64,000 nucleotides of DNA from the NCBI RefSeq assembly GCF_003852425.1, contig NZ_QAJN01000002.1, positions 124,001 to 188,000 of the forward strand, in the 5' to 3' direction. Of this stretch, positions 28,299 to 40,108 are shown one piece after another. Under the pieces are notes generated by a model that saw only the letters and a program-made list of their open reading frames with translations, made no database searches and had not been told where the DNA came from. Source of the stretch: Paucibacter sp. KBW04. Lineage in GTDB: Bacteria > Pseudomonadota > Gammaproteobacteria > Burkholderiales > Burkholderiaceae_C. Each line of letters starts with the position of its first letter. Position 1 is the first letter of the stretch. A program made the position numbers and the translations under genes.

Positions 28299-28390
28299 GG
28301 GGCTTGATCTGATCCGGTAGTTTTGTCAGAAAAGTGATTACACCATCTCAGATGAGCTTAGGCCAAGATCGCTGCCAGCCCTCCTGCACC

Positions 28391-29845
28391 ATGAGCTTGC
28401 CGTCCATGTCCAGTCCCATCCCCAGCACTCGCCATCCCATCATTCCCATCCGCAGCCTGCTGCCCGAGCTGGAGGGCCTTGAGGCCGCCCACAAAGTCCA
28501 GGTGCGCAGCGTGCGCGGCCGCTTCAGTCGCCTGCGCCTTGGCTTGCTGCTGCTGACCCAGCTGGTGTTTCTGGGTCTGCCCTGGTTGCAAATCAACGAT
28601 CGCCAGGCGGTTCGCTTCGATCTGGAGGCCCAGCGCTTTCACCTCTTCAAACTGGTGCTGCTGCCGCAGGACCTGATCTATCTGACCGGCTTGCTGGTCA
28701 TCAGCGCCCTGCTGCTCTTCTTCGTCACCACCTTGTTCGGCCGGGTCTGGTGCGGCTTCGCCTGCCCGCAAACCGTCTACACCCAGCTCTTCATCGGCCT
28801 GGAAAAACGCTTCGAGGGCGAGCGCCACCAGCGCCTGCGCCTGGATCAGGCCGCCTGGGGGCCGCAGAAGATGGCCCGCCGCGGCGGCAAGCATCTGGCC
28901 TGGCTGGCGCTGAGCTTTTGGGTAGGCCTGAGCTTTGTGGGCTGGTTCTCGCCCATGCGGGAGTTGGGAGCGCAGCTGCTGAGCCTGAACTTGGGGCCCT
29001 GGGAAGCCTTTTGGGCCCTGTTCTACGGCGGCTTCACCTATCTGAACGCCGGCCTGCTGCGCGAGAAGATCTGCCAACATATGTGTCCTTACGGCCGCTT
29101 CCAGGGCGCCATGCTGGATGCCGACACCTTGCTCGTCAGCTACGACGCCCAGCGCGGTGAGCCGCGCGGCAAACAAACCAGCAAATCCAGCGGCGCCTGT
29201 GTGGACTGCAGCCTGTGTGTGCAGGTCTGCCCGGTGGGCATAGACATCCGTCAAGGTGTGCAATCGGCCTGCATAGGCTGCGCCGTCTGCATCGATGCCT
29301 GCGATCAAGTCATGGACAAGCTGCAGGCGCCGCGCGGCCTGATCCGCTACGCCAGTGAGAACGGCGCCCAGGCCGCCCGCCTTGGCTGGCAATTAGCCCG
29401 GCCCCGGGTGCGCATCTATGCAGGCCTCTTGCTAGGCCTGTGCCTGGCCATGGCCTGGGGCTTGTCGCAGCGCGACGAGCTGCGCCTGGACGTGATCCGT
29501 GACCGTGGCGTGATGGCGCGTCAGGTGGACGAGGGCGCGGTGGAAAACATCTACCGCCTGCAGGTGGTGAATCTGTCGGAAGAGGCGCGCCAGATTCGCC
29601 TCACGCTGCAAGGCTTGCCGGGGGCGGAACTGGTGGGCAGTAGTAGCGGCAGCAACGGCAGCACCGAGTTCCGCGGTGGCGAGGCCCGCAGCCTGGTCGT
29701 GGCGGTGCGCCTGTCGGCGCCAGCGGCAGCGGCTCTGCGGCTTGGCAAGTCTGGCCAAGGCGCTAGCTCGCCCATCGCCTTTCAGATCAGCAATGGCCTG
29801 GGCGAGCAGGTCGAGGAGCCCTCGACCTTTGTCTTGCCGCGCTGA
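28391..29845 (+). CDS. ccoG: Cytochrome c oxidase accessory protein CcoG (FixG/RdxA)
   Basis: 484 residues from the ATG at 28391 (an in-frame ATG at 28406 is also possible). Five or so transmembrane segments surround CGFACPQTVYTQ and CQHMCPYGRFQG. Two ferredoxin-type 4Fe-4S motifs follow: CVDCSLCVQVCP and CIGCAVCIDACD. A C-terminal periplasmic Ig-like domain (about 370-484) completes the family architecture. CcoG reduces copper for assembly of the CuB site of cbb3 oxidase. The ccoNOP genes are not in this window, so it is separated from the usual operon or placed after it elsewhere. Confidence 0.93.
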   Translation: MSLPSMSSPIPSTRHPIIPIRSLLPELEGLEAAHKVQVRSVRGRFSRLRLGLLLLTQLVFLGLPWLQINDRQAVRFDLEAQRFHLFKLVLLPQDLIYLTGLLVISALLLFFVTTLFGRVWCGFACPQTVYTQLFIGLEKRFEGERHQRLRLDQAAWGPQKMARRGGKHLAWLALSFWVGLSFVGWFSPMRELGAQLLSLNLGPWEAFWALFYGGFTYLNAGLLREKICQHMCPYGRFQGAMLDADTLLVSYDAQRGEPRGKQTSKSSGACVDCSLCVQVCPVGIDIRQGVQSACIGCAVCIDACDQVMDKLQAPRGLIRYASENGAQAARLGWQLARPRVRIYAGLLLGLCLAMAWGLSQRDELRLDVIRDRGVMARQVDEGAVENIYRLQVVNLSEEARQIRLTLQGLPGAELVGSSSGSNGSTEFRGGEARSLVVAVRLSAPAAAALRLGKSGQGASSPIAFQISNGLGEQVEEPSTFVLPR

Positions 29846-29852
29846 AGGCGGC

Positions 29853-31004
29853 TCAGGCGTTCTCGCCCATGGCGCGCAGCACCCTGGCCTGCTCTTCCTC
29901 GTGCTGGGCCTCGGTGTCGGAAAAGCGCTGGGCGATCTGGTTGAAGTTGTCGGCCTCGGCGATGAAGGCGGCGACGATGTCGGGATCGAAATGGATGCCG
30001 CTGCCGGCCACGATCAGGCCATAAGCCTGGTCATGCGACATGGCGGGTTTGTAGACACGCCGGCTGATCAAGGCGTCGTACACATCAGCCAGGGCCATCA
30101 GGCGGGCCGAGATGGGAATGTCCTCACCGGCCAGGCCATTGGGGTAGCCGCTGCCGTCCCATTTCTCCTGGTGGCTGAGCGCAATCTCCTTGGCAAAGCG
30201 CAGAAACGGCGCCTGCTTTTGCATGCGGGACTCCCCCTCCACCAAGGCGCGATAGCCCAGGGTGGTGTGGGTCTTCATCACCTCGAACTCCTCCGGCGTC
30301 AGCCGGCCGGGCTTGAGCAGGATGCGATCCGGTACGCCGACCTTGCCGATGTCGTGCAGGGGGGCGCTCTTGACGATCAGCTCGATATTGCTGGGCGTCA
30401 GCTCGGCCGAGAAGCGCGCATGGCCTTGCAGATGATCGGCCAGGGCCTGCACATAGAGCTGGGTACGAACGAGATGGTGGCCAGTCTCGTTATCACGCGT
30501 TTCCGCCAGCGAAGCCAGGGCCATGATGGTGACGTCCTGCACCACCTGGATCTCATGCACCCGGCGGCGGACTTCCTCCTCCAGCGTGGCATTGCGATCC
30601 TTCAGCACCTGGCGCGCGTTCTTCAGCACCAGATGAGTTTCGATACGGGCTAACAAAATCGGTGGACTGACCGGCTTGGACAGAAAGTCCACCGCGCCCA
30701 GCTCAAAGCCTTGGGCCTCGGCCGAGGTGTCGCTGCGGGCGGTCAAAAAGACCACCGGGATCTCGGCGGTGCGGGGCTCGGCCTTCAGGCGGCGGCAGAC
30801 CTCGTAGCCATCCATGCCCGGCATCAGCACATCCAGCAGGATCAGGTCCGGCTGAGGGTCGCTGTTGGCAATCACCAACGCCTTTTCCCCGTTTGTGGCC
30901 ACCTTGATCTGGTAATGCTGCTTGAGCAGCCGCGAGATCAGGGCAAGGTTCTCGGGGGTATCGTCAACCACGAGGACCGACTGCCGAAGCGTCTGTTCCA
31001 CCAT
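29853..31004 (-). CDS. Response regulator with HD-GYP c-di-GMP phosphodiesterase output (RpfG-like)
   Basis: 383 residues. The receiver domain (1-120) has phosphoacceptor D58 in LILLDVLMPGMDG, with acidic pocket VVDD and Lys in FLSKPVS. The HD-GYP domain shows HDIGK (H217-D218) and DGSGYP (G286-Y287-P288), and the further metal ligands in LSHQEKWDG. It should hydrolyse c-di-GMP when phosphorylated. It is divergent from the globin stressosome operon across a 370-bp gap. No other kinase is adjacent, so the hybrid kinase at 33673 is the obvious partner. An alternative partner elsewhere cannot be excluded. Confidence 0.93.
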   Translation of the reverse strand: MVEQTLRQSVLVVDDTPENLALISRLLKQHYQIKVATNGEKALVIANSDPQPDLILLDVLMPGMDGYEVCRRLKAEPRTAEIPVVFLTARSDTSAEAQGFELGAVDFLSKPVSPPILLARIETHLVLKNARQVLKDRNATLEEEVRRRVHEIQVVQDVTIMALASLAETRDNETGHHLVRTQLYVQALADHLQGHARFSAELTPSNIELIVKSAPLHDIGKVGVPDRILLKPGRLTPEEFEVMKTHTTLGYRALVEGESRMQKQAPFLRFAKEIALSHQEKWDGSGYPNGLAGEDIPISARLMALADVYDALISRRVYKPAMSHDQAYGLIVAGSGIHFDPDIVAAFIAEADNFNQIAQRFSDTEAQHEEEQARVLRAMGENA

Positions 31005-31374
31005 AGATCTCCTATGTACCGTTCGACGTTCAGGGGCCTAACGCGTTAGCCAGCAGACACGTCAATACTCGGAATTCACCAGCACCAAGCCGCATTCAGC
31101 GCCTGACGCCACGCAAGGCCTCGATAGTATGCGGATCAAGAAATTCGATTGCAAGAAATGAGGGGCAGAGCGAGCCCAACTTGTGCAAAGCACAACGCCA
31201 CATAGTCCGCCGCTTGATTGAGTTATCTCAATCCCCGCTGGGCCAACATTCGCGCCACATTTACCCATGAAATAGTTTCATTTTTTGGGCGCTTTCGTCG
31301 AAGATGCAGTAACCGTCTACTCAGACGGCGAAGTCTGTCCCTGCCATTCTTCAGGTGAACCACGGAGCGCAACT
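31005..31374. other. Divergent control region between HD-GYP regulator and stressosome operon
   Basis: 370 bp with no supported gene, clearly less GC-rich than the flanks. It contains an FNR-type dyad at 31216-31233 and a second short palindrome ATGAAA-TAG-TTTCAT at 31267-31281 followed by five T. The latter may be an operator or a weak terminator/attenuator before rsbR. Confidence 0.6.
31216..31233. promoter_or_regulatory. FNR/CRP-type dyad upstream of the globin stressosome
   Basis: GATTGAG-TTAT-CTCAATC is a perfect 7-bp dyad with a 4-nt centre. The core TTGAG-N4-CTCAA differs from the FNR/ANR/DNR consensus TTGAT-N4-ATCAA at one base per half-site. It lies about 140 bp before the rsbR start codon. 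Binding by an oxygen or nitric-oxide sensing regulator of this superfamily is an inference. Confidence 0.5.
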
Positions 31375-32289
31375 ATGTCCTCGGTCGATCTTCACAATGA
31401 ATCGCTCGCCAATGTTCAGCAGCTGCGCGCCATGCTAGACATTGACGATGAGTTGCTGGACGACGTGCAGCGCTACGGCAAGATCGTCATTCCGCAGCTG
31501 CCGCAGTTTCTGGACGCCTTCTACGCCTGGATGGCAGGCCAACCCGACTACCGCACCTTCTTCTCCGACCCCGACCGGCTGCAACGCGTCAAGGGCGGCC
31601 AGCTGCGCTACTGGCAGGGCTTCTTCCAGGCCCAGGTGGACGACAACTATCTGCGTCGTCTGCGCGATGTCGGCGAGGTTCATGCCCGCATCGGCCTGCC
31701 TTTGCCGACGTACTTCGCGGCGATGGATGTGTCGCTCGCCATGCTCTTGGAGAACTTTTACGACAACTCCTTGGAGCCGGATGACTACATCCGCTGCGCC
31801 CGGGCCGTCACCCGCATGCTGCACTTCGACACCACGGCCGTGGTGGAGACCTACTCCCACCTGATCGGCCGTCGCATGGCCGAGCAGACCCGCACCCTGA
31901 TCGCCATGTCCACCCCGGTGACCTCGCTGTGGGAAGGGATTCTCTTGCTGCCCATCATCGGCCTGGTGGATTCGCGGCGCGCCCAGGACATCATGCATTC
32001 CTCGCTCTCGCGCATCGCCGAGTCACGCGCCAAGGTCTTCATCATCGACATCAGCGGCGTGTCGGTGGTGGACACGGCGGTGGCCAATCACCTGATCAAG
32101 GTGGTACAGGCCTCGCAGCTGATGGGCTGCTCCTGCATCTTGTCCGGCCTCTCTCCCGCCATCGCCCAAACCATTGTGGAGTTGGGCATCCCCGTCAACG
32201 ATTTGCGCACCACCTCGACCCTGCGCAATGCGCTGGAAATCGCCTTTAAGTTTGCCGGCGTCAGCGTCAAACAGATTACCGATAACTGA
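31375..32289 (+). CDS. rsbR: Globin-coupled RsbR stressosome sensor (protoglobin + STAS)
   Basis: 304 residues from the ATG at 31375. Residues about 10-165 form a sensor globin; the proximal heme ligand is H103 in GEVHARIGLPLPTYFAAM, the block seen in HemAT and other globin sensors. A linker joins a C-terminal STAS domain (about 180-295) with LLPIIGLVDS and FIIDISGV; S227 in the latter sits where RsbR proteins carry a phosphorylated Thr. Heme-globin RsbR of Vibrio is known to bind O2. It should form the shell of a stressosome with RsbS and report O2 or NO to RsbT. Confidence 0.93.
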   Translation: MSSVDLHNESLANVQQLRAMLDIDDELLDDVQRYGKIVIPQLPQFLDAFYAWMAGQPDYRTFFSDPDRLQRVKGGQLRYWQGFFQAQVDDNYLRRLRDVGEVHARIGLPLPTYFAAMDVSLAMLLENFYDNSLEPDDYIRCARAVTRMLHFDTTAVVETYSHLIGRRMAEQTRTLIAMSTPVTSLWEGILLLPIIGLVDSRRAQDIMHSSLSRIAESRAKVFIIDISGVSVVDTAVANHLIKVVQASQLMGCSCILSGLSPAIAQTIVELGIPVNDLRTTSTLRNALEIAFKFAGVSVKQITDN

Positions 32290-32302
32290 CCCCCTCCACG
32301 CC

Positions 32303-32665
32303 TTGGACGCCTCTAGCAATGTCGTTTACAGCCTGGTCTCGGGCTGTCTTGTCGCCACCATTCACGGCGAGATGACGGCCGAGTCCCTGCAGGCCATGAA
32401 TCAGCCCTTGCTGCTGCAGCTCAGCCGTAGCGAACAGCGTACGGTGTTGATCGATATGTCCAGCGTGGATCTGTTGGACCTGGTGGACTTCCAGGCCCTG
32501 CGCCAGATGCTGGGCGCCATCCATCTGATGGGCGCGCGCGCCGTCTTGATCGGCTTGCAAGCCGGTCTGGCGGCCTTGCTGGTCAATCTGGGGGCAGACA
32601 CCCGCGGCCTGCGCGTGGCAGGCACGCTGGAGCAAGCCCTCTCTGTTTACGGACGCAAAGCATGA
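32303..32665 (+). CDS. rsbS: RsbS-like STAS scaffold protein
   Basis: 120 residues if started at the TTG at 32303, which matches the usual RsbS length and leaves 13 bp after rsbR. An ATG at 32228 would overlap rsbR by 62 bp. The single STAS domain has the phosphorylation segment TVLIDMSSVDLLD, with S53 at the conserved kinase target position. RsbS forms the stressosome core and binds RsbT until phosphorylated. The stop overlaps the rsbT start (ATGA, 32662-32665). Confidence 0.88.
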   Translation: MDASSNVVYSLVSGCLVATIHGEMTAESLQAMNQPLLLQLSRSEQRTVLIDMSSVDLLDLVDFQALRQMLGAIHLMGARAVLIGLQAGLAALLVNLGADTRGLRVAGTLEQALSVYGRKA

Positions 32666-33072
32666 AGGTCGGCAAAGATGTGGAGGTCAGCATCAGCGGC
32701 GAGGCCGATCTCTGGATCGCCCTGGCCGAGGTGGACCTGCTGGCGCGCTCGGCGGGTTTTTCCGCAGCCGACACCGCCCGGCTCAAGACCGCGGCCTCCG
32801 AGCTGGCCCAGAACATCCTCAAATACGCCGGTCGCGGCCGCCTGTGCCTGCGCCTGCTGGACCCCTATCTGCAAGCAGGTGCTTGTGAGTTGGTAGCCCA
32901 GGACCAAGGCCCGGGCATCGCAGACATCAGCGCCGCCATGCGCGACAACTTCAGCACCGGCGGCACGCTGGGCCTGGGTCTGCCGGGGGTGCGCCGGCTC
33001 AGCGAATCCTTCAAGATCGACTCCAAACCGGGCGCGGGCACCGTGGTCACCGCCCGTTTCAGCCGACGCTAA
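32662..33072 (+). CDS. rsbT: RsbT serine/threonine switch kinase
   Basis: 136 residues, close to the usual 133. A GHKL ATPase fold with N-box ASELAQNILKYAG, G1 motif DQGPGIAD and lid GLGLPGVRRLSESF. In characterised stressosomes RsbT phosphorylates RsbR and RsbS, is released, and binds a downstream effector. No RsbU phosphatase or sigma-B is encoded here, so the effector is probably the hybrid kinase two genes downstream. Confidence 0.93.
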   Translation: MKVGKDVEVSISGEADLWIALAEVDLLARSAGFSAADTARLKTAASELAQNILKYAGRGRLCLRLLDPYLQAGACELVAQDQGPGIADISAAMRDNFSTGGTLGLGLPGVRRLSESFKIDSKPGAGTVVTARFSRR

Positions 33073-33083
33073 GGCGGGCCGAG

Positions 33084-33680
33084 ATGAAGCTCGAACACGG
33101 CAGCTACAACCTCCCCTGCTTCGGGCAGACCGAGTCGGGGGATCTGGTCTTCACCCAAGTCACCGAGCAGGGGTTGCTGTTTGGCCTGATCGATGTGTCG
33201 GGCCATGGCGAGCAAGCGGCCAAGGTGGCCCAGGAAATTAAGGCCTGGATAGGCGACAAGGCGCCGGAGCGGCCGATGGTGTTTCTGCAGCAGCTGGACA
33301 AGCTTTTGCGCGGCCATGGCAGCGGGGTGGGCGTGGTCTGCAATCTGGACACCCAGAAAGCGCTGCTGAGCTATTGCGGCGTCGGCAACCCCTTGCTCTG
33401 GTTGGTGGACAAGCATCAGGTACACAGCTTCCCCGCCAAACCCGGCCTGATCGGCCAGTACCTGCCGCGCCTGGAAGAGCGGCAGGTCAAGGTCGACCTG
33501 GACGATGTGATCGTGCTGGCCTCCGATGGCGTGTCCTCCAGCGCCATCTGCGTCGACGGCTTCCCGGCCAATAAGCTGCGCACCATGTCAGCCGCCGACT
33601 GCGCGCTCAATCTGGTGCGGCAGCAAGGCCGCTTCCACGACGACGCCAGCTGCCTGGTGGTACGGTGCTGCCATGATTGA
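33084..33680 (+). CDS. rsbX: RsbX-type PP2C-like serine phosphatase
   Basis: 198 residues, as in typical RsbX (about 199). A SpoIIE/PP2C fold with metal-binding [11 protein letters not shown], the GVGNPLLWL strand and the late VLASDGVSS and HDDASCLVV motifs. RsbX resets the stressosome by dephosphorylating RsbS and RsbR. The last codons overlap the start of the hybrid kinase by eight bases (33673-33680), so the kinase is translationally coupled to the stressosome genes. Confidence 0.92.
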
Positions 33681-36507
33681 GCTGGGCAGGCTCAAGCCTT
33701 GCAGCCGCGGCGCCAAAGGCCTGCAGCCCAATGCCAATGGGCGGCGTCGCCTGCTGGAGATGGGCCGGGCGCTGGGCTGGCCCTCGCCCCTGGTTTTGCG
33801 CCAGGCGGTGTTGTTCTCGCATCTGGCTCGCTTGGCGCTGACGCTGAAGGAGGTCTCGGAGGTCGAGGTGCAGTTTCTGCGCAGCAGCAGCGAGTTGGCC
33901 TTCACCCTGCAGTACCAAGGCGGGCCCATCGAGGCCCATGAGTTGCCTGCCTGTGATCGCAGCGAGCAGATCCGCCTGGACGATGGTCGCCAGCAACTGC
34001 GCTTGCTGGTGGGTGAGCCCGATGATTTGCTGAGCATCCTGGATGCCGAGCGCCTGGAGCAAGCCCGTCAATGCCTGGCGATCCGCAGTGCCGACGAGTT
34101 ATTCGCCGACGTTCAGGTCAAGAACCAGGCCCTGGAAGAAGCCCACCAAACCCTGGAGCAGCGCATCAACGAGCGCACCATGGAGCTGCAGCAGGCCATG
34201 GCCATCGCCGAGGCGGCGGTGGAGACCAAGAGCGCATTTCTGGCCAATATGAGCCATGAGATCCGCACGCCGATGAACGCCATCATCGGCCTGGCCCACC
34301 TCTGCCTGAAGACCGATCTGAACGCGCGCCAACACGACTACGTCACCAAGATTCATCACTCCGGCCAGTCCCTGCTGGGCATCTTGAACGACATCCTGGA
34401 CTTCTCCCGCATCGAGGCCGGCAAGCTGGCGATGGAGGCGATCGAGTTTGAGCTCAGCACCGTGCTGGAGAGCTTGGTCACCGTGATCGCCCAGCGCGCC
34501 TATAGCAAGGGCCTGGAGCTGCTGATCGAGGTGCGTGAAGACGTGCCGCCGCATTTGATCGGCGACCCCCTGCGCCTGGGCCAGATCCTCACCAATCTGG
34601 TGGGCAATGCGATCAAGTTCACCGAGCAAGGCCAGGTCGGCCTGGAGATCAGCCTGGTGCAAGCCCAGGGTCAAGAGCTGCAGCTGCGCTTTGTGGTGGA
34701 GGACACCGGCATCGGCATGTCGCCCGAGCAATGCCGCAAGATGTTCAAGGCCTTCTCGCAAGCCGACGAGTCCACCACCCGCAAATACGGCGGCACCGGC
34801 TTGGGCCTGGCCATCAGCAAACGCCTGGTGGAGATGATGGGCGGCGAGATCGACGTCAGCTCCGAGCAGGACAAGGGCAGCCGCTTCTTCTTCACCGCCA
34901 ACTTCGGTCGCGGCGAGGGCCGCCCGACCCGGCCGGTGCTGCCGCCCCAGCTGCACCGCGCCCGCGCCCTGATCGTGGACGACAACCCCGTGGCCGAGCG
35001 CATCCTGCGCAAGCTCTTGGAGCGGCTTGAGCTGCGAGTGGACAGCTGCCAATCCGCCCTCGCCTCCTACGACTTGCTGGCCGCCGCCGACGGCCTGGAC
35101 CCCTACCGACTGGTGTTTCTGGACTGGAAGATGCCGGTGGTGGACGGCATGCAAGCCGCTCAGCACATCCGCCACGAGCTGCCCCTGAGCCACCCGCCGC
35201 GCCTGATCATGGTGACGGCCTTCGGCATGGAAGAAACCCGCGCCAAGGCCGAGGCCATAGGCGTGGACGGCTTTTTGCACAAGCCGGTCAACCCCTCCTC
35301 CTTGCTTGACGCCTTGATGGACCTCTACGGCGACTACAAGCTCAAACTGCCCGCCCCCGACGCGAGCGAGCCCTCGCTGCGCTTCGAGGACGTGCATGTG
35401 CTGCTGGTCGAAGACAACGAGATCAACCGCCAGATCGCGCTGGAGCTGTTTGCCCTGGTGGGCGTCAGCGCCGAGGTGGCGGTCAATGGCCAGGAGGCGG
35501 TGGAACACCTGCTGCGCAGCGGCCCCGAGCCCTTCGACATCGTCTTCATGGACATGCAGATGCCGGTGATGGACGGCCATGAGGCGGCCAAACGACTGCG
35601 CGCCGACCCACAGTTCGACTCCCTCCCCATCATCGCGATGACGGCCCACGCCATGGCCGAGGAGCGCGAGCGCTGCCTGAGCGAGGGCATGCAAGCCCAT
35701 ATCTCCAAGCCCCTGGACCCCGGCAATCTCTATCGCCATATCGCCCAGTACAGCGGCAAGGAGCTCAAGGCCCAACATGCCGAGGGTGGGCCGGTCGAAG
35801 CGGCCGCCCTGTCCGAGACCGCCGCCGCCCAGGACATGCAGGAGCGCCTGTCCAAATTCATCACCCAGCCCAGCCCCGAGGGCGAAGCCTTGATCGCCGC
35901 CCTGCCGGGCCTGGACATTGCCGCCGCCTTGCAGCGTTTCGTCAACGACGCAGGCTCTCTGCGCAATACCTTGCAACGCTTTTGCGTCAACCAGCGCCAG
36001 GCCCTGGAGGAGCTCAGCAGCGCCTTGAAACGGCAGAACTGGGCCGAGGGTGAGCGGGTCGCCCATACCTTGAAAGGCTTGTCCGCCACCTTCGGCATGG
36101 ACGCACTGGCCCAGGCCGCGGGAGCGCTTGAGCAGGCCTTGCGCCAGCCCGAGCCCGAGGCTCAAGTGCTGCACAGCGGCATGGCCGAGCTGAGCCAGGC
36201 CTTGCAAAGCGTGCTGGGCCAGTTGGACGCCTACTTCGGCAAGGCCAGCGACGCCACGGTGGAGATTTACGAGCCGGCACCTAGCGCCCATGCGGCGCCA
36301 GGCGACCCCGCCGCCGTCCAGGCCTTGCAAGAACGGCTGCGCCAGCTGCTGCAGGCCTCCGATCTGGACGCCCTGGCCCTGGCCGAGGAGAGCAGCGACT
36401 TGCTGCGCAGCTGGCTGGGCTCCTCCCAGGCCGATGCCTTGATGGACCATCTGCAACTGTTTGACTTCGACGCCGCCCTGGCTTTGCTGGACGCCGCCAA
36501 GGGCTAA
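33673..36507 (+). CDS. Hybrid sensor histidine kinase (HisKA-HATPase-REC-REC-Hpt) coupled to stressosome
   Basis: 944 residues from the ATG at 33673, overlapping rsbX. No transmembrane segment is evident. Residues 1-about 140 are an unrecognised N-terminal domain, then a coiled coil (about 145-180, [20 protein letters not shown]). HisKA has H195 in [12 protein letters not shown]. HATPase has [26 protein letters not shown] and [12 protein letters not shown]. Two receivers follow, with D484 (FLDWKMP) and D627 (FMDMQMP), then an Hpt domain with H798 ([13 protein letters not shown]). The kinase is cytosolic, so its input probably comes from RsbT or another stressosome protein. Its likely output is the divergent HD-GYP regulator. 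Confidence 0.94.
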
Positions 36508-36594: not shown

Positions 36595-38358
36595 ATGACC
36601 CTGACCCAAATGTTGCTCGGCTTTGTACGCCGGCATTGGCGCGCCTATGCCGCCGCCGCCCTGATGCTGGCCAGCATCGCCGTGCTGACCACCTGGATCC
36701 CGCGCCAGGTGGGCCATGTGGTGGACGGCATGGTGGCCGGCTCCCTGCAGGGTCAGGTCTTGCTCCAGCAGCTGGGCCTGCTGGTGGCGGCCGGTGCGGC
36801 CATTTATCTGCTGCGGGTGGGCTGGCGCCTGGCCTTGTTCGCCGCCGCCTACCGCCTGGGCCAGCAGCTGCGCACCCAGCTCTATGCCCGCTTGAGTCTG
36901 CAAGGTCCGGTGTTCTTCCAGGCCAAGCGCAGCGGTGATTTGATGGCCTTGGCCACCAACGACGTGGACGCCGTCGAGATGGCCGCGGGCGAGGCCTTGC
37001 TGGCAGCCTTTGATGGCACGCTGACTCTGGTCTTGGTACTCCTGATGATGACCGTGGGCGTGGATTGGCGCCTGGGCCTCGCCGCGCTGCTGCCCTTCCC
37101 CCTGATGGCGCTGGCGTTCTGGCGCATCTCCGACCATATCCACCACGCCTGGCAAAGCTCGCTGGGGCGCTTTTCAAAACTCAATCAGCATGTGCAAGAA
37201 GGCCTGGCCAGCGTGCGCACCCTGCGCGCCCTAGGCCTGGCCGAGCACAACGCCGGCCAGTTCCGCACCTTGGCGGCCAGCGCCGGTGAGGCCAGCTTTC
37301 AGGCCCAGCGTTGGGAAGCAGCTTACGAGCCCGCCGTGGGCATGACGCTGAGCGCGGCCACCGTCATCGCCCTGGGCCTGGGCGGCGTGCTGGTCGCCAA
37401 ACAAGAGCTCAGCATCGGCCAGCTGACCTCTTTCACCATGTATCTGGGCCAGCTGATCTGGCCCATGTTTGCCGCCGGCTGGGTGCTGTCCCTGCTGGAG
37501 CGTGGGCGCGCCGCCTGGGACCGCCTGCTGCCCGTGCTGGAAGCGCCCCTGAGCTTGGAAGACAAGGGCCAGCAGCCCATGCCGGCCCAGGCCCAGCTGA
37601 GCTTTGAGGATTTGACTTTTAGCTACGCCGAGGCCAGCAAGCCGGCCCTGCAAGACATCCAGCTGCAGCTGCGCCCCGGCCAAACCCTGGGCCTGGTGGG
37701 GCCCACGGGCGCGGGCAAGTCCACGCTGCTGAATCTGATCCTGCGCCAGTTCGAACCCAGTGAGGGTCGCATCGCGGTGAGTGCCGATGGCCAAACCCTG
37801 GGCCTGCCCGAGATCAGCCTGACCAGCCTGCGCGCCGCCATCGCCTGGGTGCCACAAGAGCCATTTTTGTTCTCGGCCTCCATCGCGGAAAACATCGCCC
37901 TGGCACGCCCCACGGCCACCCGCGCCGAGGTCGAACAAGCCGCCCGCATGGCGGCCGTGCACGACGACATCACGCGCCTGCCCCAGGGCTATGAGACCGA
38001 GGTGGGCGAGCGCGGCGTGACGCTTTCCGGCGGCCAGCGCCAGCGGGTGGCGATCGCGCGTGCCCTGCTGTCCGAGGCGCCGATTCTGCTGCTGGACGAT
38101 GCCTTGTCGGCCGTGGACACCGGCACCGAAACGCAGATCCTCGACCATTTGCGCGAGCTGCGCCAGGCACGCCCCGAGCGCAGCGTCATCATCGTCAGCC
38201 ATCGCCTCAGCGCGGTGATGGAGGCCGACCAGATCGCCGTGCTGCGCGCGGGCCGCATCAGCGAACAGGGCCGGCATGCCGAGCTGCTGGAGGCCGGCGC
38301 CTGGTACGCCAGCCAATGGCGTTATCAACAACTGGAGGCCAGCCTTGATGCGCTCTGA
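36595..38358 (+). CDS. ABC exporter half-transporter, MdlA-like
   Basis: 587 residues. Six-helix exporter membrane domain (about 1-310), then a nucleotide-binding domain with Walker A GPTGAGKSTL, signature TLSGGQRQRVAIARAL, Walker B ILLLDDALSAVD and H-loop VSHR. The Asp in place of the catalytic Glu (LDDALS) suggests a degenerate site, as is common in one half of heterodimeric exporters. It overlaps the next gene by 11 bases; together they form an MdlAB/SmdAB-like heterodimer. Substrate unknown. Confidence 0.92.
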   Translation: MTLTQMLLGFVRRHWRAYAAAALMLASIAVLTTWIPRQVGHVVDGMVAGSLQGQVLLQQLGLLVAAGAAIYLLRVGWRLALFAAAYRLGQQLRTQLYARLSLQGPVFFQAKRSGDLMALATNDVDAVEMAAGEALLAAFDGTLTLVLVLLMMTVGVDWRLGLAALLPFPLMALAFWRISDHIHHAWQSSLGRFSKLNQHVQEGLASVRTLRALGLAEHNAGQFRTLAASAGEASFQAQRWEAAYEPAVGMTLSAATVIALGLGGVLVAKQELSIGQLTSFTMYLGQLIWPMFAAGWVLSLLERGRAAWDRLLPVLEAPLSLEDKGQQPMPAQAQLSFEDLTFSYAEASKPALQDIQLQLRPGQTLGLVGPTGAGKSTLLNLILRQFEPSEGRIAVSADGQTLGLPEISLTSLRAAIAWVPQEPFLFSASIAENIALARPTATRAEVEQAARMAAVHDDITRLPQGYETEVGERGVTLSGGQRQRVAIARALLSEAPILLLDDALSAVDTGTETQILDHLRELRQARPERSVIIVSHRLSAVMEADQIAVLRAGRISEQGRHAELLEAGAWYASQWRYQQLEASLDAL

Positions 38359-40108
38359 AGAAGTCAAAAAAGACGAGCGGCCCTGGGCCTCGGTCGGCCT
38401 GCTGCTGGATGCCGCCAAGCCGGAGAAGCGCACGATGCGATGGGGCGTTTTGTGGCTGCTCGTCGCCGCCGGCCTGGAAGCCTTGGGGCCCATCATCGGC
38501 AAGCAATTCATCGACGCGCACCTGCTGCCGCGCCAATTCGACCTCCCCGCCATGGCCATGCTGCTCACGGGCTTGCTGGCCTGCGGCTGGGTGGCCAGCT
38601 GGATCCGTTACGCCCAGCTCAGCCGCATGGCCGGTGTGGCCCAGCGCTCGGTGCTGCGCTTGCGCGAGCAGGTCTATGCCCATGTGCTGGCCCTGCCCAT
38701 GGCTTTTTTTGATCGCGCCATCACCGGCCAGCTGGTCAGCCGCGTCACCAATGACAGCGAGGCGGTCAACACGCTTTATCGCCAGGTGCTGTATGTGATG
38801 CTGGACTCCAGCATCGTGGTGCTGGGCTCGCTGATCGCCATGGCCTGGCTGGACTGGCGGCTGATGCTGATCGTCGCCACCCTGATCCCGGCCATGGTCG
38901 TCATCATCTTGCTTTACCAGCGCCTGAGCGCGCCGGCCGTGGCCCGCGCCCGCCAGCTGCGCAGCGAGATCAATGCGCAGATGGCCGAGAGCATGGCCGG
39001 CATGGCCATGTTGCAGGCGGCCGGCGCGGCCCAGCGCTTTGGCGAACGCTTCGGCAGCACCAACAGCGCTCACTTCGACGCGCGCCAGAAAGAGCTGCGC
39101 GCCAATGCCTGGCTTTTGCGCCCGGCCCTGGACTTGCTCAATGTGATGCTCTTGGTCACCGTCATCTACGGCTTTGGCCGGCGCGAGATGTCGGGCCTGG
39201 AGGTGGGCCTGCTCTATGCCTTCCTGAGCTATATCGCCCGGGTGGTGGAGCCGCTGATCCAGATCACCATGCAGTTCGGCCAGCTGCAGCAGTCCATGGT
39301 GGCGGCCTCGCGGGTGCGCAGCCTGTTGCAAGAGACCGCACCTGTCGTGGCCAGCGCCAGCGGCCGGCCGATTAGCCAAGGCCAAATCGAGATCGATCAA
39401 CTCAGCTTCGGCTACGCGCCCGAGCGGCCCGTGCTGCATGAGTTGAATGTGCAGATTCCGGCCGGCTCTTTTGTGGGCATCGTCGGCCATACCGGCAGCG
39501 GCAAGTCCACCCTGCTCTCGCTCTTGCTGCGCTTTTACGCGCCCCAGCTGGGGCGCATCAGCATCGATGGCCAGGCCTTGTCCGAGATCCCCGACGCCGC
39601 CTTCCGCGCCGCCGTGGGCCTGGTGCCGCAAGAACCCTATCTGATGGCAGCCTCGGCGCGCGAGAACATCGCCATGGGCCGCAAGATCCCCGAGGCCCAG
39701 CTGCGCGCCGCGGCACGCGCCGCCCGCATCGATGAGTTTTTGGACGGCCTGCCGCAGGGCTGGGACACGCTCATGGGTGAAGGCGGCGCCCGCGTCTCCA
39801 CCGGCCAAAAGCAGCTGATCGCCATGGCTCGCGCCCTGGCCGGTGCGCCCAAGATTCTGTTCCTGGACGAGGCCACCTCGAACATCGACAGCGCCACCGA
39901 GCGCATCGTCAGCGAGGCCCTGACGGCCTTGCGCGGCCAGGTGACGATTCTGGCGATTGCCCACCGGCTCTCCACCATCCGCGAGGCCGATCAAATCATC
40001 GTGCTCAACCACGGCCATCTGGCCGAGCGCGGCCGCCATGTGGAGCTGATGGGCTTGGAGGGCGGGATCTATCAGCGCCTGGTTCAGTTGCAGGATTTGA
40101 GCGACTAG
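38348..40108 (+). CDS. ABC exporter half-transporter, MdlB-like
   Basis: 586 residues from the ATG at 38348, inside the end of the preceding gene. Six-helix membrane domain and a nucleotide-binding domain with Walker A GHTGSGKSTL, Walker B ILFLDEATSNID with the catalytic Glu, and H-loop AHRLST. The signature motif is VSTGQKQLIAMARAL instead of LSGGQ, as in the MdlB branch. The pair therefore has one consensus and one degenerate ATP site. Confidence 0.92.
   Translation: MRSEEVKKDERPWASVGLLLDAAKPEKRTMRWGVLWLLVAAGLEALGPIIGKQFIDAHLLPRQFDLPAMAMLLTGLLACGWVASWIRYAQLSRMAGVAQRSVLRLREQVYAHVLALPMAFFDRAITGQLVSRVTNDSEAVNTLYRQVLYVMLDSSIVVLGSLIAMAWLDWRLMLIVATLIPAMVVIILLYQRLSAPAVARARQLRSEINAQMAESMAGMAMLQAAGAAQRFGERFGSTNSAHFDARQKELRANAWLLRPALDLLNVMLLVTVIYGFGRREMSGLEVGLLYAFLSYIARVVEPLIQITMQFGQLQQSMVAASRVRSLLQETAPVVASASGRPISQGQIEIDQLSFGYAPERPVLHELNVQIPAGSFVGIVGHTGSGKSTLLSLLLRFYAPQLGRISIDGQALSEIPDAAFRAAVGLVPQEPYLMAASARENIAMGRKIPEAQLRAAARAARIDEFLDGLPQGWDTLMGEGGARVSTGQKQLIAMARALAGAPKILFLDEATSNIDSATERIVSEALTALRGQVTILAIAHRLSTIREADQIIVLNHGHLAERGRHVELMGLEGGIYQRLVQLQDLSD

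Follow-up and report, generated by a model that had tools for sequence, protein, structure and literature searches.

A putative pseudo-RsbT domain as input of the hybrid kinase in a Vibrio-type globin stressosome of Paucibacter sp. KBW04

Background

How does a stressosome without sigma-B, and with an effector that lacks an RsbU_N domain, signal the firing of RsbT to this effector? The question is raised by a module of six genes (positions 29853 to 36507) in a stretch of 64,000 nucleotides from the 5.6 Mb genome of Paucibacter sp. KBW04 (contig NZ_QAJN01000002.1, positions 124,001 to 188,000), which is called the window in the following. The module was read by translation of its open reading frames (ORFs) and by Pfam scans. 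A sequence-only reading of the same DNA had described rsbR, rsbS, rsbT, rsbX, a hybrid histidine kinase of 944 residues, and a divergent HD-GYP response regulator; all these genes and their coordinates were borne out, and the residue numbers given for RsbR (H103), the Hpt domain (H798), and the receiver of the regulator (D58) are correct. The locus is a member of the known Vibrio-type stressosomes. According to the sections of the Vibrio work considered here, most effectors downstream of such modules do not contain RsbU_N, by which RsbT exerts its effect in Bacillus, and how the signal reaches them was left open (PMC9237108). We found no account of such a route in our searches of the open-access literature, which did not extend to Pane-Farre 2005 and 2017. 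The sequence-only reading overlooked the N-terminal domain of the kinase. This domain looks like a divergent relative of RsbT that is predicted to be dead with respect to nucleotide binding, and as far as our searches of the open-access literature show, such an input domain is undescribed.

The N-terminal domain of the effectors

The first about 115 residues of the kinase are a domain common to 53 aligned proteins; in the window it comprises residues 1 to about 118 (33673 to 34026, forward strand). The profile of the 53 kinase N-termini matched a profile of 82 RsbT sequences with 95.7% over 102 columns (hhalign), while the ATPase, DHp, receiver, and coiled-coil regions of the same kinases as well as RsbS, RsbX, and HD-GYP stayed at or below 3%, and the same holds for controls in which one of the two profiles was reversed and for five column shuffles. 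A profile of 17 N-termini of PP2C proteins, which does not include any kinase, matched RsbT with 93.7% and the kinase N-termini with 99.4%. The whole domain family matched RsbT with 96.1%, its controls reaching at most 1.84%, and the region matching RsbT spans 76 to 102 columns across the profiles. When the comparison was made against 20 clusters of ORFs from the same loci, RsbT came first with 96.3%, followed by 49% for the cluster to which the kinases themselves belong; none of the 18 remaining clusters, some of which are shadow frames included in the ORF calls, exceeded 0.54%.

The domain is not restricted to kinases. A hidden Markov model (HMM) built from the kinases only was run against 3747 ORFs of the named loci, and its best 40 non-kinase matches were either genes following rsbX (or following a fusion of rsbT and rsbX) or RsbT genes. 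Ten such effectors following rsbX were scanned with Pfam and contain SpoIIE-type phosphatase domains, to which seven add a C-terminal HATPase. These PP2C effectors come from cyanobacteria, Halieaceae, Ignavibacteria, Bacteroidota, Gemmatimonadales, and one unassigned bacterium.

Whole genomes were searched with an alignment of 50 N-termini without any RsbT (A4), covering 274 genomes of the class, in each of which at most 16 candidates were scored. Nine matches were obtained at E<=0.001, two of which are effector kinases, the one of the window and one with a HisKA motif in genome G244. Of the seven others, six (L173, L174, L175, L176, L178, and L179) are RsbT-type proteins in which both SELxxN and DxGxG are intact. 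The seventh is a protein of 341 residues that starts with an RsbT-like ATPase and was interpreted, on visual inspection, as a fusion of RsbT with a phosphatase (L177); the RsbX-like genes in L180 and L181 were also recognised by eye. The GHKL family PF13581 is matched at 26 places of the window genome. With all 91 candidates scored, A4 has a single match there at E<=0.1, the N terminus of the kinase; the RsbT of the window is not matched.

The nucleotide-binding motifs set the two families apart. The N-box asparagine is present in 82 of 82 RsbT proteins and in none of the 70 copies of the domain, of which 26 have kept a glutamate in the N-box region. DxGxG is found in 79 of 82 RsbT proteins and in three of the 70 copies. 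Because the N-box asparagine (70 of 70) and DxGxG (67 of 70) have been lost, the domain is not expected to bind ATP in the manner of RsbT, and it is therefore named pseudo-RsbT. It also differs from GHKL kinases of the RsbT and SpoIIAB type in being fused to histidine kinase or PP2C effectors.

The same position in the operon can apparently be occupied by RsbU_N. In two genomes (G084 and G140), the gene after the PP2C gene in rsbX position, as recognised by eye, encodes a histidine kinase starting with RsbU_N; the RsbR match in these genomes covers only the STAS part and the linker and not the whole globin. Judging from this gene order, the slot after rsbX is shared by pseudo-RsbT and RsbU_N effectors. 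The latter, comprising Bacillus subtilis RsbU, Moorella MtG, and some proteobacterial kinases, share with the window kinase that they are effectors of an RST module and have a small N-terminal domain that a helical linker joins to the output domain. The two N-terminal domains do not match each other (hhalign 1.06%, based on two RsbU_N sequences only), and the 25 of 28 Pfam families listed for 42 N-termini do not include PF08673, so that RsbU_N was rejected as identity of the N-terminal domain. RsbU_N was found neither in the window kinase nor, at E<=0.001, in the window genome.

The distribution of the domain was determined with a profile of 14 globin-RsbR proteins, which resulted in 299 candidates in named genomes, of which the best 80 loci were used. 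In 52 of these, two separate genes, rsbT and rsbX, follow, and in 14 they are one fused frame; rsbX was not found in ten loci and rsbT in four, several of them at contig ends. Because this order recurs across the 80 loci, the arrangement is not due to chance. The domain profile matches directly after rsbX or rsbT in 69 of 72 readable loci (50 histidine kinases, 17 PP2C proteins, and two genes cut by the contig), a figure that is inflated given that the HMM was trained on most of these sequences. The readable loci are the 80 minus four in which RsbT was not found and four that end at a contig edge.

Several observations speak against a relation to RsbT or against the coherence of the family. 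The pair of the window copy and its Roseateles oligotrophus ortholog matches RsbT with only 2.15%, and the Vibrio set alone with 10%. An HMM built without the Burkholderiales members misses the R. oligotrophus copy, and one built from the PP2C proteins only finds 18 of 51 kinases at E<1e-3. Neither Pfam nor a sequence search of the PDB connects the N-terminal domain to a GHKL protein; the N-terminal alignment retrieved seven weak PDB matches, the best to pyruvate kinase (E 0.016) and several to coiled coils. Three of the 72 readable loci do not have the domain after rsbX or rsbT, namely L137, where no effector was found nearby, L148, whose truncated ORF was also excluded from the N-terminal alignment, and L160. 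When groups were held out, HMMs recovered 3 of 13 Vibrio/Aeromonas, 5 of 6 Neisseriales, 4 of 6 Burkholderiales, 6 of 9 Myxococcota-like, and 13 of 15 other members at E<1e-3, and the alignments kept near-identical species.

However, these two sets match the rest of the family, the window pair with 81.2% (reversed 0.3%, five shuffles at most 0.31%) and the Vibrio set with 96.6%. The window copy is thus to be regarded, by its sequence, as an outlier member: because it matches the family with 81% but RsbT directly with 2.15%, its relation to RsbT is transitive via the family. The missing Pfam and PDB connection to GHKL proteins, the weak direct matches of the window and Vibrio copies (2% and 10%), and an identity of about 13% would also fit a likeness that reflects a shared alpha/beta shape and not descent, the domain being an otherwise unrelated stressosome-coupling domain. 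This is quite unlikely given that two profiles from separate sets of proteins match RsbT with 94-96%, with no reversed or shuffled control above 1.5%, that the other ORF clusters, the kinases' own aside, do not exceed 0.54%, and that the genome search returns RsbT genes.

Proposed signalling from RsbT to the kinase

The kinase (33673 to 36507, forward strand) starts eight bases before the end of rsbX at 33680, an overlap that the sequence-only reading had given correctly. Its domains are arranged in the order N-terminal domain, coiled coil, HisKA (H195), HATPase, receiver (D484), receiver (D627), and Hpt (H798). All four phosphorelay residues are present, in agreement with its earlier description as a phosphorelay hybrid kinase. 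We did not find a clear transmembrane segment, the most hydrophobic 19-residue stretch (hydropathy 1.61) being inside the second receiver, and Pfam did not report a PAS domain for the window kinase; the R. oligotrophus kinase likewise does not have one between N-terminal domain and HisKA. Four of seven related kinases scanned have a PAS domain at this place (L079, L080, L081, and L087). Before HisKA, the Vibrio kinases are longer than the window kinase by about 105-115 residues, and the Neisseriaceae relative L087 contains its PAS domain at the place of this extra length.

When RsbT binds RsbU at its N-terminal domain and linker, a coiled coil becomes ordered and dimerises the output domain, as described in the part of the study consulted, which extends the same idea to kinases with RsbU_N (PMC12143880). 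Between the pseudo-RsbT domain and HisKA the family has a conserved helical linker (34060 to 34212, forward strand; N-terminal alignment consensus K/RSxxEL...N..L....LE..I..RT), which by analogy is compatible with an RsbU-like scheme with a different receiving domain. The pseudo-RsbT domain would then take the slot filled elsewhere by RsbU_N and provide the contact of the kinase with either RsbT or the STAS core. In general, we lean slightly towards the view that RsbU_N-less stressosomes of several phyla signal to a dead RsbT copy at the front of the effector, a portable adaptor for kinases or PP2C phosphatases that either pairs with RsbT or replaces it on the STAS shell. Concerning the partner, a heterodimer of pseudo-RsbT with released RsbT is a tentative possibility. 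Docking on the STAS core is rather doubtful, and the same holds for an action via direct phosphorylation or something else.

A brief contact in which active RsbT directly phosphorylates the kinase, the N-terminal domain being a dimerisation cap only, would be a different solution. Direct phosphorylation has been proposed for effectors without RsbU_N and would fit that an attempt to detect an interaction between RsbT and the kinase VvD1 of Vibrio vulnificus gave no positive result, as far as the relevant sections report (PMC9237108). This result also counts against pseudo-RsbT as the coupling piece. In the same two-hybrid assay, however, RsbT did not bind RsbS or RsbR singly either (PMC9237108), and because of that we judge the negative result as weak. 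Direct phosphorylation would leave unexplained why a domain related to RsbT heads both kinases and PP2C phosphatases after rsbX, and why RsbU_N is found in the same slot in two other genomes. Therefore, it is an unlikely explanation.

The HD-GYP regulator as probable output

The response regulator of 383 residues (29853 to 31004, reverse strand) consists of a receiver (Response_reg, E 3.7e-27) with the phospho-acceptor D58 and an HD-GYP domain (HD_5, E 8.4e-31) with the motifs HDIGK and HQEKWDGSGYP. Its nearest solved relative is 4r8z, titled a cyclic di-GMP (c-di-GMP) phosphodiesterase (E 3.7e-66, residues 148-364), which we take to be PA4781. Of the metal motif, HD and GYP are present, but a glutamine replaces the second histidine of HHE, the window having SHQEKWDG where 4r8z has SHHERWDG. 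The same change is found in 11 of 12 Vibrio relatives. From its motifs, the protein is likely but not certain to be active as a phosphodiesterase.

An HD-GYP regulator is encoded near the kinase in 19 of 51 named loci with a kinase. It is directly downstream in 16 of these (12 Vibrio, one Aeromonas, two Deefgea, and one Neisseriaceae), in which rsbR, rsbS, rsbT, rsbX, the kinase, and the HD-GYP gene all have the same direction, and upstream and co-directional in one (L133). The downstream set includes a locus in which rsbX was not detected (L104), one with the regulator split over two frames (L106), and one flagged as overlapping (L098). Two loci, L091 of R. oligotrophus and L123 of an uncultured proteobacterium, have the regulator in divergent position as in the window. 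Not counted were the divergent regulators of L110, which has only a receiver match and no HD-GYP motif, and of L126, with a partial match in a 163-residue frame, as well as receiver-only or partial matches in L114, L120, L121, and L163. The search for the complete arrangement in related genomes that had been suggested earlier thus yielded Vibrio, Aeromonas, Deefgea, and Neisseriaceae, and the recurrent adjacency argues for the regulator as partner of the kinase.

The window genome contains 11 HD_5 matches, the HD-GYP gene is divergent and outside the operon, and in 32 of the 51 kinase loci no HD-GYP regulator was found by the filter used. These findings speak against the pairing, and the HD-GYP protein could instead serve another kinase. 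We regard this as very unlikely, because regulators that are 53-61% identical to that of the window directly follow the kinase in the 16 loci, which belong to several families, many with overlapping frames. Given the 32 loci, c-di-GMP is one optional output among several.

The sequence-only reading had assigned a GGDEF regulator to Vibrio and regarded the HD-GYP output as new. Neither holds, as the 12 Vibrio loci carry HD-GYP regulators 53-58% identical to that of the window, and two papers, in the parts covered here, already predict c-di-GMP degradation as output of the V. vulnificus stressosome (PMC10014275, PMC10436020). Globin stressosomes linked to c-di-GMP are listed for Vibrio, Chromobacterium, and Herbaspirillum in the sections seen of PMC9237108. 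The RsbRSTX and VvD1-VvD2 systems of V. vulnificus and V. brasiliensis share with the window the globin RsbR, the order of rsbR, rsbS, rsbT, and rsbX, and a hybrid kinase overlapping rsbX, and differ in the HD-GYP gene, which is downstream in Vibrio and divergent upstream in the window.

Probable oxygen sensing and the stressosome core

RsbR (304 residues with an ATG start, 31375 to 32289, forward strand) has an N-terminal Protoglobin domain (PF11563, E 3.8e-30) and a C-terminal STAS domain (E 6.1e-13). Its proximal heme histidine H103 and Y50 are invariant in 14 of 14 aligned globin-RsbR proteins, and the best match to a solved structure is 7o0i_B (E 5.3e-106). RsbR is therefore a probable heme-binding oxygen sensor of the stressosome, as predicted from its sequence. 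Together with the gene order and the downstream signalling gene, its globin and STAS domains agree with the initial assignment as globin stressosome. RsbS (32303 to 32665, forward strand; STAS, E 3.3e-07) is a single STAS domain without an ATG; the likely start is a TTG at 32303, which is retained in R. oligotrophus. RsbT (32662 to 33072, forward strand) is a GHKL serine/threonine kinase (HATPase_c, E 7.6e-12; HATPase_c_2, E 9.8e-10) with intact SELxxN and DxGxG motifs, and RsbX (33084 to 33680, forward strand) is a single-domain PP2C/SpoIIE phosphatase (SpoIIE, E 1e-11).

The column equivalent to the phosphosite of B. subtilis RsbS, which we assume to be Ser59, contains a leucine in the window. 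This loss was considered as a special feature of the window RsbS and rejected, as 72 of 78 aligned RsbS proteins do not have a serine or threonine there; that the B. subtilis phosphosites are not conserved in V. brasiliensis has already been published, as far as the part of that work covered here goes. Because only 6 of 78 have a serine or threonine, the release of RsbT cannot hinge on this phosphosite in most such stressosomes.

For Vibrio proteins, heme and O2 binding and an O2-dependent activity of RsbT are reported in the sections considered (PMC4976288, PMC9237108). In V. brasiliensis (PMC4976288), RsbT is at its basal activity when RsbR carries O2, reaches an intermediate level when the ligand is NO or CO, and is most active when the Fe(II) of RsbR is unliganded, and because of that the loss of O2 should turn the system on. 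By analogy to V. brasiliensis, O2 is a better supported ligand than the alternatives, whereas the sequence-only reading had named O2 or NO.

Taking the genes, domains, catalytic residues, adjacency, RsbT kinship, loss of the ATP motifs, and the slot shared with RsbU_N as read from the sequence, we consider it fairly probable that the locus is a Vibrio-type oxygen stressosome with two-component output, in which the pseudo-RsbT domain is the coupling piece and the HD-GYP protein lowers c-di-GMP. RsbR and RsbS would form the core, RsbT would act as the switch kinase, and RsbX would reset the system. A change of the presumed heme ligand of RsbR, the predicted direction being loss of O2, would alter the helical linker through the putative partner of pseudo-RsbT and thus kinase activity. 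Phosphate would then be passed from H195 to D484/D627, H798, and D58 of the HD-GYP regulator, whose presumed phosphodiesterase activity would lower c-di-GMP.

Genomic context

The HD-GYP gene and rsbR are separated by 370 bp (31005 to 31374), which presumably hold both promoters; a simple scan did not reveal a sigma-70-like site in this region. The statement of the sequence-only reading that RsbU and RsbW are missing is correct for the operon: rsbU, rsbV, rsbW, and sigB, which distinguish the SigB-type stressosome of B. subtilis, are not among the six genes scanned with Pfam, and no genome-wide search for sigB was made. It does not extend to the genome, because a separate contig (C27, locus L001) contains a HATPase gene in a cluster, named by eye, that resembles a PP2C/STAS partner-switching system.

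The nearest named relative of the module is that of R. oligotrophus (95% for RsbR). Because only 1 of the 17 further genus genomes that were searched has an RsbR of the window type, the module is patchy in the genus. The flanking genes (28334-29845 and 36595-40108) are presumably CcoG-like on the 5' side and ABC-exporter-like on the 3' side. The ABC-exporter-like gene (36595-38358) is present in 18 of 18 genus genomes with at least 75% identity. A close copy of the CcoG-like gene (82%) is found only in R. oligotrophus, with paralogs of 50-58% identity elsewhere, and four copies are listed in the window genome. Given this unequal conservation of the flanks, the module may be at the edge of an acquired segment.

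Two further features were seen among the related loci. At the ORF level, rsbT-rsbX fusion frames are found in L125, L128, L129, L130, L131, L135, L138, L139, L143, L145, L149, L159, L163, and L167. In L086 (12315-14222), L121, L122, L128, L134, L137, L141, L142, L143, L145, and L169, the gene before the globin rsbR encodes a second protein, of about 600-641 residues and with an RsbR-like STAS end, which in some cases is truncated where the contig stops.

Conclusions

If the effectors of RsbU_N-less stressosomes indeed bear a dead copy of RsbT, one rule would apply to histidine kinases and phosphatases of proteobacteria, cyanobacteria, and Bacteroidota. The link from O2 to c-di-GMP at the Paucibacter locus would then be one instance of that rule.

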